The notes under the pieces were generated by a model, which did not search any database, was not told where the DNA came from, and worked only from the letters and a program-made list of their open reading frames with translations. Shown piece by piece: positions 8,626 to 55,397 of a stretch of 64,000 nt of DNA (position 1 is the stretch's first letter; the number at the start of each line of letters is the position of its first letter). This DNA is from Enterococcus crotali (GTDB lineage Bacteria > Bacillota > Bacilli > Lactobacillales > Enterococcaceae), in the NCBI RefSeq assembly GCF_000633635.1, contig NZ_AYPQ01000004.1, positions 62,086 through 126,085 of the forward strand, in the 5' to 3' direction. A program made the translations under genes and the position numbers.

Positions 8626-8726
8626 AAAAATGAGTGGGACGTGACTCTTCAAGTCATGTCCCACTCACGTGGACTCCGGATAAACGGTGGGAGCAAAAGC
8701 AATCCTTTCGGAAATATACTGTCGCT
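8626..8726 (+). repeat. Family A intergenic repeat, copy A2 (lacks its right end)
   Basis: The left hairpin at 8631-8667 (TGAGTGGGAC ... GTCCCACTCA) is followed by GGATAAACGGTGGGAGCAAA and a CTTTCGGAAAT block, as in the other copies. The right-hand part seen in A1 and A3 is absent; the uspA 3' end follows directly. Confidence 0.7.
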
Positions 8727-11710: not shown

Positions 11711-11949
11711 TTTAAAAGCGTAGCGGGCTCGTTCAAACTCGTAGAAAAATAGGAAAAGATGTATGTGACGTATTTAGTCGCAGACAGCTTTTATCTTTTT
11801 TCCTAGAGTTTAGCTCGCGTAGCTAGATAACATTAAAAGCGTAGCAAGCTCATTCAGTCTTGACTGAAAAATAGGGAAAATTGACTGAGGTGCTTTTTAC
11901 CTCATTCCATTTTCATCTTTTTTCCGAGAGACTAGCTCGCGTAGCTAAC
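11711..11949 (-). repeat. Family B repeat, two tandem units
   Basis: Two units, 11711-11828 and 11829-11949, are alike on the minus strand. Each starts with a GCTACGCGAGCTA-type block, continues with GGAAAAAAGATAAAA or GGAAAAAAGATGAAAAT, then CCTATTTTTC, and ends in GCTACGCTTTTAA-like sequence. Three more units are at 43387-43740 and one at 20480. The run fills the space between folC and the HAD gene in the direction of transcription. Confidence 0.8.
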
Positions 11950-19683: not shown

Positions 19684-19927
19684 GCCCTAAAATACTTTCG
19701 TATTTTAGGGCGTATAAACATTATACGTGGTACCACCTAAATTGTGTTTGGCAAATTCAAACACCACTTCATTCGTGAGGTAACGATCACTACTCGAATC
19801 ATTCTACTGAATTCAAATCATTGACTCCCAAGCTACCTTCTTACTGGTTATGTGAAAATCTTCCACCAAATGATTTTCTCTCTAGAACGATGCCAGTAGT
19901 ACTCCTCTTGTTCACAGTCTTTGATTT
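19684..19927 (-). promoter_or_regulatory. T-box leader of valS
   Basis: Read on the minus strand, the element has a long stem I, the T-box core AGGTGGTACCACG (19726-19738), and a terminator of 12 pairs with a TTCG-type loop (19684-19711) followed by TTTTTT. The antiterminator would form from the T-box core in competition with it. A GTA triplet at 19834-19836 in the stem I specifier region fits valine, though the stem was drawn by eye. Confidence 0.93.
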
Positions 19928-20479: not shown

Positions 20480-20600
20480 TTTAATAGCTGAGTAAATGGT
20501 TTAGCATCGACGAAAAATGGAAAATATGGCTGTGGTATTCTTTGACCTATTCCTATTTTATCTTTTTTCCGAGATGCTGGTTCACTAAGCTAGATATTTG
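20480..20600 (-). repeat. Family B repeat, single diverged unit
   Basis: On the minus strand it has the same order of blocks (TCTCGGAAAAAAGATAAAA-like, then CCTATTCC, CCATTTTTCGTCG and an end near CTAAACC) as the tandem units at 11711 and 43387, but is more diverged. It lies between rex and tpx and reads in their direction. Confidence 0.6.
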
Positions 20601-28558: not shown

Positions 28559-29323
28559 GTGATCGAATTGGCAGGAGTTAGTAAAAACTATGGCACCAAG
28601 CAAGCGTTGAAGGAACTAAATCTAACAATCAAACAAGGCGAAATTTTTGGATTTCTTGGGCACAATGGTGCTGGTAAATCAACAACGATCAAAAGTTTGG
28701 TAAGTATCATCCAACCATCCAGTGGTTCTATTAAAGTTGATGGTTTGGAGTTAGCAGAAAATCGACAAGCAATCAAGCAGAAAATTGCTTATGTTCCTGA
28801 CACGCCTGATATCTTTTTACAATTAACAGCAGGCGAATATTGGGATTTGATTAGTGCCGCTTATGAACTTGACGAGACGCAAAAGCAGAACCGCTTGAAC
28901 GAATTGGCTACTTTATTCGACATGTTAAGTCATCAAGATGAAACGTTAGCTAGTTTTTCTCACGGTATGCGGCAAAAAACGATTATCATCGGTGCGTTAT
29001 TGCCCGATCCTGATATTTGGATTTTGGATGAACCGCTGCAAGGTTTAGATCCTCAGGCGGCGTTTGATTTGAAACAAATGATGAAAGCCCATGCTGCGAA
29101 AGGGAAAACGGTTATTTTTTCAACGCACGCCTTAGATACAGCACAACAATTATGTGATCAGTTGGCTATTCTTAAGAAAGGTGAACTCATTTACAATGGT
29201 TCTGTCGATGATTTATTAGCACAATCACCTAATGAATCTTTAGAGGGCATTTATTTGAAGATGGCTGGCCGTCAATCAGATACTGAATTAATAGAACGTA
29301 TTGAAGGTGATATAAATGAATAA
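28559..29323 (+). CDS. ABC transporter ATP-binding protein
   Basis: A 254-residue ATPase with Walker A GHNGAGKSTT (about 34-43), Walker B WILDEPLQGLD and a degenerate signature FSHGMRQKT in place of LSGGQ, as seen in many EcsA/drug-export type ATPases. The start is GTG after AAGGTGGGG; the start codon four codons upstream overlaps the ribosome site. Its end overlaps the permease gene by eight bases, so the two form an export-type ABC system. The cargo is not identifiable. Confidence 0.85.
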   Translation: MIELAGVSKNYGTKQALKELNLTIKQGEIFGFLGHNGAGKSTTIKSLVSIIQPSSGSIKVDGLELAENRQAIKQKIAYVPDTPDIFLQLTAGEYWDLISAAYELDETQKQNRLNELATLFDMLSHQDETLASFSHGMRQKTIIIGALLPDPDIWILDEPLQGLDPQAAFDLKQMMKAHAAKGKTVIFSTHALDTAQQLCDQLAILKKGELIYNGSVDDLLAQSPNESLEGIYLKMAGRQSDTELIERIEGDINE

Positions 29324-30899
29324 ACCGCAATTGCTTGAATTAACACGAGTCAACTTACGCTACGCTAATCCTCAAATAACGGATCGAGCTCGAAAAAAGG
29401 GGAAAAGTGGAAAAGCCTTGACGCGTGCCTTGATCAATCAATATTTGCTTTCTGGTGTTTTATTTTTATTTATTTACGGCGTAACGATGTTTCTGATCGA
29501 TTTTAGCCAGATGCCGGGCTTCTTCACTTATTATGTAGCCTTGTTTAGTATCTTAGCTTTTTCACAAGGCATTTCAGTTATTTATAATGTTTTTTTTGAA
29601 AGTCAGGACTTACCGGCCTATTTACCACTGCCCTTTAAACAGAGTATGATTTTTACAGCAAAGATCTTGGTTGTTGCTTTAACTGTCACGCCTTTTGTTT
29701 TTCCGATGCTAGTCGTCTTCTTACTGACTGGCTGGCGAGCAGGGATTTTCTTGCCAGTGACTATTGTTTTGGCGATTTTGCTTTTTTTATTGGTTTTAGC
29801 GACAGTTTTTGCAATTTGCTGTTTGATCGTGTTTGGCTTAACTCGAACGAAATTTTTCAAAGAGCATAAAAAAGTTGTGACTAGCTTGTTGTTGGGGATT
29901 TCGATGACGATTGCGATCGTGGGAATTATTTTTATGAATGGGCAAAGTTCTTATTCTGAAACTGGTCAAATGGATCGTCAGCCAATTGCCATTTTATTGC
30001 CACTATTTCAGATTGTATCTAACCCATTTTCGACATCAGGGCTGCTCAGTTTAGCAGGATTGATCGCTATATTGTTATTATTGTTGTTGGCCATCAAAGG
30101 ATTGATTTTACCAAAACTCTATGAACAACTGACTGACGTGTCCACTGCCAAAGGTGCTCACCGTCGAACACATAAAGTAAATCAAAGCTTAAACCAACTA
30201 CTGATAGGTTATAATACCCAGTTATTGAAAGAACCCAACCTAATTATGCAAGTATTATCAAATTCTTTATTGATGCCAATGATCTTTATCTTTACATTTG
30301 CGTTTGGCGGCTCACTGAATTTAAGCCATTTAGAGGTACGTTTTATTGGGGTCGTTTTTTTAGCTGGAATTGCCTTGGCTTGGATGACGATCAATCAGAC
30401 ATCTTTTATTAGTAATCTGATTTCTCTTGATCAAGAAAATTTTCATTTTATCCGCTCTTTACCTATTTCAATGACTCGCTATATGCAGAAAAAATTTTTA
30501 GTTGGGCTGGTTGTACAGCTCATTTTAACGGGTGGAGTTGCGTTGATTGCTAGTCTTCTCTTTCAGCTACCGATTATTTTTGGGATTAGTTTAGTAACTG
30601 GTTCCTTATTAGGTAGTTATCTGCTTTGTCTGCGTTTTTTTGCAAGAGATCATCGATTTATCTTATTGGAATGGACAAGTATCAGTCAATTGTTTAATCG
30701 CGGATCTGGAAGTACAGGGTTAGTTTTGACAATGTTCGGATCGATTCTTGGTAGTTTAATTGTTCTAACACTTTATGGCTTTGCTGCTGTGTATCTACCA
30801 TTTTGGCCGTTAAATATAGGCGTTTTAATGCTTATCGTCCTTGTGACTATTCTGTGGATCCGTCACTATCAAAAAAACTTTTGGGCACGTTTTGATTAA
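29316..30899 (+). CDS. ABC transporter permease
   Basis: A 527-residue protein with about a dozen hydrophobic segments: two near 45-95, a cluster at 115-200, more at 235-265, 325-365 and 400-525. The N-terminal cytoplasmic stretch is basic (RARKKGKSGKALTR). It is longer than EcsB and belongs to an export-type permease group that pairs with single ATPases; I cannot name the family with certainty. It is translationally coupled to the ATPase before it. Its stop is followed by the composite repeat A3. Confidence 0.75.
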   Translation: MNKPQLLELTRVNLRYANPQITDRARKKGKSGKALTRALINQYLLSGVLFLFIYGVTMFLIDFSQMPGFFTYYVALFSILAFSQGISVIYNVFFESQDLPAYLPLPFKQSMIFTAKILVVALTVTPFVFPMLVVFLLTGWRAGIFLPVTIVLAILLFLLVLATVFAICCLIVFGLTRTKFFKEHKKVVTSLLLGISMTIAIVGIIFMNGQSSYSETGQMDRQPIAILLPLFQIVSNPFSTSGLLSLAGLIAILLLLLLAIKGLILPKLYEQLTDVSTAKGAHRRTHKVNQSLNQLLIGYNTQLLKEPNLIMQVLSNSLLMPMIFIFTFAFGGSLNLSHLEVRFIGVVFLAGIALAWMTINQTSFISNLISLDQENFHFIRSLPISMTRYMQKKFLVGLVVQLILTGGVALIASLLFQLPIIFGISLVTGSLLGSYLLCLRFFARDHRFILLEWTSISQLFNRGSGSTGLVLTMFGSILGSLIVLTLYGFAAVYLPFWPLNIGVLMLIVLVTILWIRHYQKNFWARFD

Positions 30900-31008
30900 T
30901 ATATATAAATAAAACGAGCCCGGGACAAAACTAATTTTTAGTTTTATCCCGGGCTCTAAAACCGAATAAACGGCGAGAAAAAAGCAGCTCCTTCGGAAAT
31001 AAGCTGGA

Positions 31009-31062
31009 ATTGCTATGAAACACAGCGAAGCATGAGCTGATGTAAAACAGTACCTACTTGGT
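31009..31062 (+). repeat. Family C module, copy 1
   Basis: A 54-base module beginning ATTGCTATGAAACACAG and ending ACAGTACCTACTTGGT. It is absent from the same place in the family A copy at 55226. Confidence 0.7.
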
Positions 31063-31080
31063 CACAAAAATTTGAAGAGC

Positions 31081-31135
31081 ACCAAGTAGGTACCAATCAT
31101 CATCAGTTCGTAAAATCACTGTGATTCTTGGCAAT
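31081..31135 (-). repeat. Family C module, copy 2 (inverted)
   Basis: On the minus strand it begins ATTGCCAAGAATCACAG and ends TTGGTACCTACTTGGT. It aligns along its whole 55 bases with the other two copies and interrupts the CACAAAAATTTGAAGAGCA/CAATTTTCGT block that is continuous in copy A4. Confidence 0.7.
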
Positions 31136-31153
31136 TTTCGTACATTCCCTCTT

Positions 31154-31207
31154 ATTGCTGTAAAACACAACGAGGTACGAGTTGATGTTGCACAGTACCT
31201 ACTTGGT
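31154..31207 (+). repeat. Family C module, copy 3
   Basis: A 54-base module beginning ATTGCTGTAAAACACAA and ending ACAGTACCTACTTGGT. It sits between CCCTCTT and TCTCGGAG, which are adjacent in the other A copies. Confidence 0.7.
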
Positions 31208-31341
31208 TCTCGGAGCTAAACACTTTTGTCTCGGCCTCATTTTTTTATACTAAAATGTACCAGTTAGCACGTGTATAAAATGGTATCATAAGAGTAACGT
31301 ATCGACTAAAAAATAAAATTATATTTCAGGAGGCTCATAAT

Positions 31342-31932
31342 ATGGAGACATGCGACCAAAACAATTTAAAAAACTGGGTAAAGGAATTTCTAACGGATCA
31401 AAATTGTTTCAAAACGTATGATCACTGTATTTCAGTAGGAGACTACGCTTATGAGTTAGGTAAGGATTATTTGGATGAGCCGGATAAAGCTCGAATTGCA
31501 GGCTATTTGCATGATATTTCAGCAATTTATCCAAACGATCAAAGAATCGATGTAGCTAAGAGGATGGGAATCGATTTATATAAAGAAGAAATAGCACTCC
31601 CGATGATCATTCACCAAAAAATATCGAAGGCGATAGCCTTAAATGAATTCAAGGTGACTGATCCGGCGATTCTGTCGGCTATCGAATGTCATACCACTTT
31701 AAAAGGGGACTATTCTGATTTAGATTTAGTTGTCTTTATAGCAGATAAAATAAAATGGGATCAAGAAGGAAAACCGCCTTATATTGCAGGTCTGATGGCC
31801 GCTTTGGATAATTCGTTAGAAGAGGCCGCTTATTATTATATTGAGTATTTATTAAATCATGATATTCAGGTGATCCATCCGTGGTTGAATGAAGCGCATG
31901 TGAAATTGAAAAAGCAGTTAACCGCTGTTTAG
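31342..31932 (+). CDS. HD-domain hydrolase, YqeK-like
   Basis: A 196-residue HD-superfamily protein with His in TYDHCISVGDYAYEL (about 30-44), the HD pair in AGYLHDIS (about 56-63), HTTL near 119 and the last Asp in VVFIADKIKWDQEG (about 131-144). The motif order fits YqeK, the symmetrical Ap4A hydrolase of Firmicutes, but it lies outside the usual nadD-yqeK-rsfS cluster, so it is perhaps a second, diverged member. CAGGAGGC precedes the ATG. It stands alone and ends at a strong terminator shared with the oleate hydratase gene. Confidence 0.7.
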   Translation: METCDQNNLKNWVKEFLTDQNCFKTYDHCISVGDYAYELGKDYLDEPDKARIAGYLHDISAIYPNDQRIDVAKRMGIDLYKEEIALPMIIHQKISKAIALNEFKVTDPAILSAIECHTTLKGDYSDLDLVVFIADKIKWDQEGKPPYIAGLMAALDNSLEEAAYYYIEYLLNHDIQVIHPWLNEAHVKLKKQLTAV

Positions 31933-43348: not shown

Positions 43349-43386
43349 AAAATATAAGGTGAAGCGGAGGAGAAGGTTGTTACCAT

Positions 43387-43740
43387 ATCTAGCTGCACGG
43401 GCTAGCTCTTCGGAAAAAAGATAAAAATGGAATGAGGCAAAAAGCGCCACAGTCAATTTTTCCTATTTTTCAGTCAGAGCAGGGCGGAACGTTGTTACTA
43501 TATCTAGCTGCACGGGCTAGTTCTTCGGAAAAAAGATAAAATCTGCCTGTGACTAAAAGCGTCACAAACATATTTTCCTATTTTTCAGTCAGAAATGAAC
43601 GAGCCAGTTACGCTTTAAAATTATCTAGCTGCACAAATCAATCCTTCGGAAAATAGAGAAATGGTCAGTGAAACAAGGAACGTTTCAATGTCAATTTCCT
43701 AATTTTCTACAGGATGAACCGATTTGTTCCGCTTTTAAAA
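43387..43740 (+). repeat. Family B repeat, three tandem units inside the PTS operon
   Basis: Units at 43387-43501, 43502-43622 and 43623-43740 each begin ATCTAGCTGCAC, then a TTCGGAAAAAAGATAAAA-type block, a variable part with a G(C/T)CAC-like inverted motif, then TTTCCTATTTTTCAGTCAGA and, at the end, CGCTTTTAAAA-like sequence. The third unit is the most diverged. They read in the direction of the operon and fill most of the 407-base gap between EIIAB and EIIC, where no gene is seen. Confidence 0.8.
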
Positions 43741-55225: not shown

Positions 55226-55397
55226 GGAGGTTGGGTCAGAAGTGTTTAATCCCGAGAAATAAGAAGGAATTCACGAAAATTGCTCTTCAAATTTTTGTGA
55301 ATGTCAGCTTATTTCCGAAGGGATTGCTTCTGATTCCACCGTTTATTCGGATTTAGAGCCCGGAACAAAACTGATTTTTAGTTTTGTCCCGGACTCC
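55226..55397 (-). repeat. Family A intergenic repeat, copy A4 (inverted)
   Basis: On the minus strand it runs from the hairpin at 55356-55396 (GAGTCCGGGACAAAACT and near complement) through CCGAATAAACGGTGG, CCTTCGGAAATAAGCTG and CACAAAAATTTGAAGAGC to TTTCTCGGGATTAAACAC and CTGACCCAACC. This is the uninterrupted form of the element and shows where family C was inserted in A3. Confidence 0.75.

Follow-up and report, generated by a model that had tools for sequence, protein, structure and literature searches.

Most accounts treat the small interspersed repeats of bacteria as single mobile units with an obscure mover. In ERIC, a hairpin repeat, short additional stretches of sequence reportedly occur at defined internal positions. 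Elements derived from IS200/IS605 and REP-type elements insert beside a short fixed sequence without target duplication, and they have hairpins near their ends. According to the available text of PMC2267715, the Efa-1 repeat of Enterococcus faecalis is intergenic, 163 nt long and present in 65 copies, and it forms two adjacent stem-loops. BOX of Streptococcus pneumoniae is described in the available part of PMC3049150 as a composite small repeat: its end modules are fixed, and the internal module that they enclose may be missing or repeated several times. Correia/NEMIS elements come in two lengths, an internal sequence of 50 bp making the difference (PMC2229807, as far as available).

Here we compare these systems with family A, a hairpin repeat of Enterococcus which, at the locus studied, contains three short related units. 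Our data suggest, with a probability of roughly 60%, that these units are modular parts of an Efa-1-like repeat that were inserted long ago and whose present gain and loss are due mainly to recombination among copies. The uninterrupted (simple) form of family A resembles Efa-1 in its size, its dozens of copies and its double stem-loop, and it is by these features that we liken the two, the published alignment being a figure. The available account of Efa-1 (PMC2267715) mentions no modules, fixed internal sites or empty forms, whereas family A has all of these. The closest system in organisation, as far as the available BOX text goes, is BOX, since family A likewise has an optional internal module that can be iterated (three sites; one five-copy array). 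While boxB lies between boxA and boxC, family A carries related units with variable bodies and a fixed tail at three to four separate points, one of them inverted. Correia/NEMIS, in the available text of PMC2229807, has one internal segment and no units in both orientations at several sites, unlike family A. We rate the optional units in family A as a variant of a known modular-repeat organisation. The initial annotation had known of no description of such a nested arrangement in enterococci. For the units themselves this agrees with a literature search, most subscription journals lying outside its reach, which found no account of them in enterococci; the kind of arrangement does have precedent in the similarly modular BOX of pneumococcus. 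Papers containing the 12 letters that were searched for had mammalian topics by title. Mobile terminators tied to insertion sequences, and BIMEs as bidirectional terminators, are covered in PMC2965389, the available text of which does not treat the repeats studied here.

The window (the whole stretch of 64,000 nucleotides that was analysed) comes from a genome of Enterococcus, referred to here as G000, that totals 3.9 Mb over 20 contigs. The building blocks of family A are two arms, left (L) and right (R), together with an outer stem-loop (T) and a core palindrome (P). The copy with modules occupies 30916-31238 and is flanked by open reading frames at 29316-30899 and 31342-31932, both on the plus strand. 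Its parts, and the simple copy used as a reference, are as follows.

30916..30956, no strand assigned: T, the outer stem-loop of family A, with 19-nt arms that are 95% complementary; terminator-like on the minus strand
30957..31011, plus strand: L arm, ending in AATT at site 1, from alignment with simple copies of the same genome
31012..31062, plus strand: module 1, M type, 51 bp, at site 1 (empty form AATT^CACAAAA, from comparison of filled and empty copies)
31063..31080, plus strand: P1, the part of the core palindrome between sites 1 and 2, from alignment with simple copies
31081..31132, minus strand: module 2, b type, 52 bp, inverted, at site 2 (empty form AAAATT^GCTCTTC on the minus strand)
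31133..31156, plus strand: P2, the 3' arm of the core palindrome, ending in TTATT at site 3, from alignment with simple copies
31157..31207, plus strand: module 3, M type, 51 bp, at site 3 (empty form CTTATT^TCTCGG)
31208..31238, plus strand: R arm, from alignment with simple copies, followed by a T run read in the sequence
55226..55397, minus strand: simple (uninterrupted) family A copy of 172 bp without modules, the reference for the empty form

The three related segments that the initial annotation had marked are real, and each was trimmed to the bounds listed above, since the annotation had included an ATT that the empty sites share. Across copies the units are approximately 51-54 bp long and consist of a similar start (often GCTGTnAAnCAC), a variable body and the tail GTACCTACTTGGT. 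In the window the 13-base tail is identical in modules 1, 2 and 3; the units start with GCTAT, GCCAA and GCTGT, and all end in TTGGT. Over whole modules, 41 aligned bases are identical between modules 1 and 3, 36 between 1 and 2, and 35 between 2 and 3. Without the tail, the bodies align at 28 (1 and 3), 23 (1 and 2) and 22 (2 and 3) of 38-39 bases, and letter shuffling reached the observed scores in 0, 1 and 7 of 2000 trials for pairs 1 and 3, 1 and 2, and 2 and 3, respectively. The exact tail occurs in the window at the three modules only, and with up to 2 mismatches it has 4 matches against 0.48 expected, a number reached by none of 100 shuffles. On both sets of shuffles we reject chance similarity of the modules.

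Within the source genome, the annotated claim that each segment lies where the copy at 55226-55397 is continuous was borne out, as that copy runs through all three module points. The simple copies L010, L015, L017, L018, L020, L021 and L023 share the composite backbone and diverge from it at the same three points. The window composite is 99.1% identical to L017 and L015 over 111 and 110 backbone positions, respectively (a single difference in the 111 positions for L017), with three modules against none. Nor does the composite stand alone. Including the copy in the window, G000 contains six composites with 93-100% identity over most of a 356-base query, the five others being 93-98% identical to the window composite, which indicates that the three units move together within the larger repeat. 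A composite with the same site types was found in G000, G014 and G006. We infer that the triple was assembled before the species split and has since moved or been lost mostly with its host repeat.

The recurrence of that composite in three genomes could also mean that the three-module form is ancestral and that simple copies are deletion products, and deletions between short direct repeats do remove parts of the element (L065, L069, L084 and L090, read by eye). We regard this as distinctly improbable, since it needs repeated exact loss at three points that have no flanking direct repeats. Furthermore, G000 has 52 simple-A matches (fragments included), and each of six genomes has 39 to 52 against 0 to 27 exact tails, with 39 and 0, respectively, in G019.

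We parsed 170 distinct copies, drawn from G000, E. caccae (G001), G006, G014, named Enterococcus records and others, by alignment to all architectures. Copies alike over 120 bases were counted once. The digits of a pattern give the state of sites 1, 2 and 3 in order, and three of the six G000 composites are among the scored copies of pattern 111. Since loci were picked for carrying the tail or for likeness to simple A, the following occupancy counts are not population frequencies. Of the 170 copies, 82 have no module, and patterns 100, 010, 001, 110, 011 and 111 are all present; pattern 101 was not found among them. A single module replaces the core in 16 of the 170, as expected if modules 1 and 3 recombine. 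These 16, which lack the core segment, and 10 copies with a low alignment score were excluded from the junction set (n = 144). There, seven of the eight patterns are again present (000, 81; 110, 26; 100, 18; 001, 8; 111, 7; 011, 2; 010, 2), and 28 copies have one unit only.

Aligning family A copies with and without the module, as the initial annotation had proposed, gave filled and empty forms whose junctions are mostly exact in the alignment. Of the 144 copies, 51 have a unit at site 1, with the exact junction in 47 of them, and 93 have this site empty, all 93 with the exact junction. Site 2 is filled in 37 (28 exact) and empty in 107 (103 exact), and site 3 is filled in 17 (all exact) and empty in 127 (122 exact). 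Inexact junctions thus comprise 4 of 51 filled copies at site 1, 9 of 37 filled and 4 of 107 empty copies at site 2, and 5 of 127 empty copies at site 3; a diverged b subtype and a deletion variant are among the examples. The empty forms given in the list above are the commonest at each site. The proposed search for border duplications of 2-3 bases found none: at the commonest junctions there is no target duplication of at least 2 bases, a single T being ambiguous. Filled and empty forms mostly differ by the unit alone, without the target site duplication typical of a MITE, and comparison of the ends of the window's units revealed no terminal inverted repeats. The triplet to the left of the unit is ATT in 48 of 51 copies at site 1, 26 of 37 at site 2 and 17 of 17 at site 3. 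When 210 tail contexts were considered and the 104 without a recognised start were omitted, ATT was the left neighbour of 91 of 106 recognised starts, the others being AAT (6), GGT (5), GTT (2) and ACT (2). The units mostly lie 3' of a fixed short sequence without duplication, as derivatives of IS200/IS605 do.

Many M units contain a further segment of approximately 34-35 bp (GCTTTCTCG...AACATT), nested at GAT^GTTGCAC, which forms a third level of nesting (L061, L064, L116, L141 and others).

We asked whether unit types keep to particular sites. Among 139 distinct tail contexts (at most 1 mismatch; first 157 loci), the right flank is that of site 1 in 53, site 2 in 32, site 3 in 40 and another in 14. 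The b body was recognised in 29 of the 32 site 2 contexts, the other 3 being untyped, and in none of the 93 at sites 1 and 3; the M body occurs in none of the 32 site 2 contexts. A tree was made of 80 M units, 64 of which bear a site 1 or site 3 label; these labels need 4 changes on it, compared to a mean of 10.5 and a minimum of 6 after shuffling, and genome labels need 22 changes (shuffled mean 45.8, minimum 39). The initial annotation had described the segments as discrete insertions. This holds in so far as they are very short units, found in both orientations and with empty sites; an independent insertion of each is not supported, given the fidelity of the b type to site 2 and the few changes on the tree. 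On a backbone tree (one quick tree of 132 rows of the 170 copies and 115 columns), occupancy needs 23, 21 and 10 changes at sites 1, 2 and 3, respectively (shuffled means 36.5, 29.1 and 13.6; minima 32, 26 and 11). Since these values are below the shuffled ones yet many, occupancy follows the backbone lineage only in part.

Gain and loss at the same site by recombination among copies accounts for both the site-faithful types and the partial agreement of occupancy with lineage, while free transposition of units accounts for the latter and not for the former, and is less likely. Because unit types are faithful to their sites in the genomes typed, we prefer the reading of the units as modular parts. 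Ancestral units would have been inserted at a few fixed points, mostly right after ATT and without target duplication. The whole repeat would then multiply and carry its units along, like boxB of BOX, while a unit would come and go at its own site through recombination or gene conversion among copies, of which a genome has dozens. Where units have the same orientation, recombination between their tails may delete units, and units might occasionally be iterated in tandem. We infer that recombination among copies is the present mover and that the ancestral insertion had a preference for RTT. For that first step, single-strand transposition of the IS200/IS605 kind would fit by analogy, as it resembles it in site preference and lack of duplication. 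Some observations run against this reading. P1 (18 bp) and P2 (24 bp), which separate the units, offer little length for ordinary homologous exchange. The bodies at sites 1 and 2 look exchanged in E. faecalis compared to other species (L155 and L335, read by eye), which site-wise descent does not predict. Finally, locus L304 of G091 has, at approximately 377-438, a unit-like stretch of approximately 62 bp with outward-facing tails at both ends, outside an obvious family A copy.

Related genomes, to which the initial annotation had pointed, contain units, and occupancy varies among them; other copies and empty forms were both found. The exact tail is present in 17 of 22 genomes of the genus and in 26 of 105 Enterococcaceae genomes, compared to 0 to 2 matches per strand and genome for the backwards control; two of the 26 (G062 and G076) have a single match, by eye in apparent gene sequence. 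In a collection of 84,980 species, an 18-base form of the tail matched 54 stretches, 53 from Enterococcus and one from Photobacterium. Locus L298 of G091 contains, at 389-655, five units head to tail with a period of 54 bp; their phase is that of the module boundaries, and the first follows AAATT. A fourth site (site 0), GAGTT^unit^GAAGG, is filled in L314 and L315 of G022 and empty in L335 of the same genome and in L293 of the E. faecalis record. G022 also has tail-to-tail hybrids, in which the left flank of site 0 leads through a unit to the right flank of site 1 (L313) or site 3 (L334). G031 has a hairpin repeat that looks related and carries units at site 3 (L320-L322), and this site is empty in an E. 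faecium plasmid locus (L156). Two G000 elements were also followed through their flank genes, matched in 20 and 10 of 22 genomes, G000 included. The intergenic part in 10 and 9 relatives, respectively, contained no family A copy with modules, so the gain of modules cannot be dated that way.

Several of these observations would also be expected if the unit were an active non-autonomous element of approximately 51 bp, inserted and removed precisely after RTT by an enzyme acting in trans, much as hairpin single strands are handled by the transposases of IS200/IS605 or those associated with REP. The duplication-free filled and empty sites, the preferred left neighbour, and the fixed tail with a variable body point in this direction, as do the filled and empty states of the fourth site in E. 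faecalis, the similar units in repeats of G031 and G045, the stretch in L304 and the exchanged bodies of E. faecalis. A short stem (GCTGT/ACAGC), read in the sequence near the start of several bodies, is also consistent with it. Nonetheless, we consider active mobility rather unlikely. In addition to the fidelity of types to sites, units read by eye lay in hairpin repeats, except for L304 and a few chance-like tails. Although the duplication-free insertion is the same, the units are far shorter than IS200/IS605-derived and REP-type elements, and the Y1 transposase domain (PF01797) was not found in G000 by a search that was positive in 5 of 14 control genomes. A Y1 (HUH) transposase acting in trans was rejected as mover on this result, which covers one enzyme family in one genome. 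In viral sequences a 16-base form of the tail turned up in 17 stretches, and the 60 bases upstream contain a unit in none of them, which also led us to reject a phage carrier.

An IS or MITE with two ends of its own was likewise rejected. A non-exhaustive reading by eye of tail contexts in 11 genomes (G000, G001, G006, G014, G091, G022, G024, G031, G033, G034 and G045) noticed no IS-like pair of ends.

The initial annotation had expected the inverted pairs to give a large fold, and the prediction agrees. The composite has a predicted folding energy of -124.1 kcal/mol (z -11.6), and modules 1 and 2 pair with each other in this fold, while the simple copy of 172 bp is predicted to form two adjacent stem-loops (z -8.6). 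Selection for structure might then keep the units, if pairing of modules 1 and 2 lengthened the hairpin and altered termination or mRNA stability. We find this highly improbable: inverted copies pair by descent anyway, and 28 copies of the junction set have a single unit. Among 16 aligned stretches of module 1, loop and module 2, none of 25 predicted pairs was kept with both sides changed, so that common descent is enough to explain the pairing; conserved pairing of modules 1 and 2 was rejected for this lack of double changes. A terminator scan gave one terminator-like site, at T and on the minus strand only.

We also compared E. faecalis genomes. G022 matches the E. faecalis record at 598 of 598 flank bases, and that record has 30 simple-A matches at approximately 12 places (grouped by eye). 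Of 11 stretches from NZ_CP143580, 5 have flanks in G022 stretches and 6 have no long flank there. The element is present in both genomes at L375/L386. At another shared locus (L376/L387), 743 of 746 bases of the right flank and 1434 of 1451 of the left flank are alike; NZ_CP143580 has units at sites 2 and 3, both of which are empty in G022, and in G022 a site 0 unit is fused directly to the right flank of site 1. Module occupancy thus likely differs at this locus within the species, although NZ_CP143580 starts and ends inside the L376 element, which makes an assembly fault there possible. Since several fixed points are found both filled and empty, across many genomes and apparently also within one species, the gain, loss and conversion of units of approximately 50 bp could become directly measurable.

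NZ_CP143580.1 (L295 and L376), a sequence of 747 kb labelled as a plasmid, shares flanks with the main contig of G022 at several places and is perhaps a chromosomal piece broken at a family A repeat.

At all three E. faecalis loci with the element in one genome only (L366, L367 and L368), G022 lacks it and has a short stem-loop in its position (L404, L378 and L379, respectively). In L404 and L379 this is a clear terminator-like hairpin, flanked by an A run on one side and a T run on the other; that of L378 is weaker (-8.7 kcal/mol) and has no T run. In G000, family A at L180 takes the place of a hairpin common to four species (L183, L184, L185 and L189), next to a tRNA-Arg that was found in L180, L184, L185 and L189 and not in L183, which suggests that the repeat arrived there by replacement. 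The whole family A repeat seems to take over the place of native hairpins and not to insert next to them, and such apparent replacement is a possible route for exchanging gene-end signals. Enterococci seem to put very small DNA parts together in varying combinations in their gene-end repeats. A broader and quite doubtful proposal is that Enterococcaceae cassettes of approximately 34-54 bp, mostly with the 13-base tail, are moved precisely beside RTT in gene-end hairpin repeats by a putative recombinase, while the host repeat spreads by replacing native terminator stem-loops.

The window holds other elements as well. An Rfam scan at gathering score returned a T-box leader at 19703-19924 on the minus strand (RF00230, 121.5 bits) and nothing besides it. 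Another interspersed repeat family, of approximately 82-115 bp, lies at 11744-11947, 20511-20592 and 43363-43619, with a direct pair at 43363-43592. Family A-like pieces at 409-484 and 8626-8701 have a different outer stem-loop (GAGTGGGATATAACTC type), which points to exchange of the outer hairpin too.
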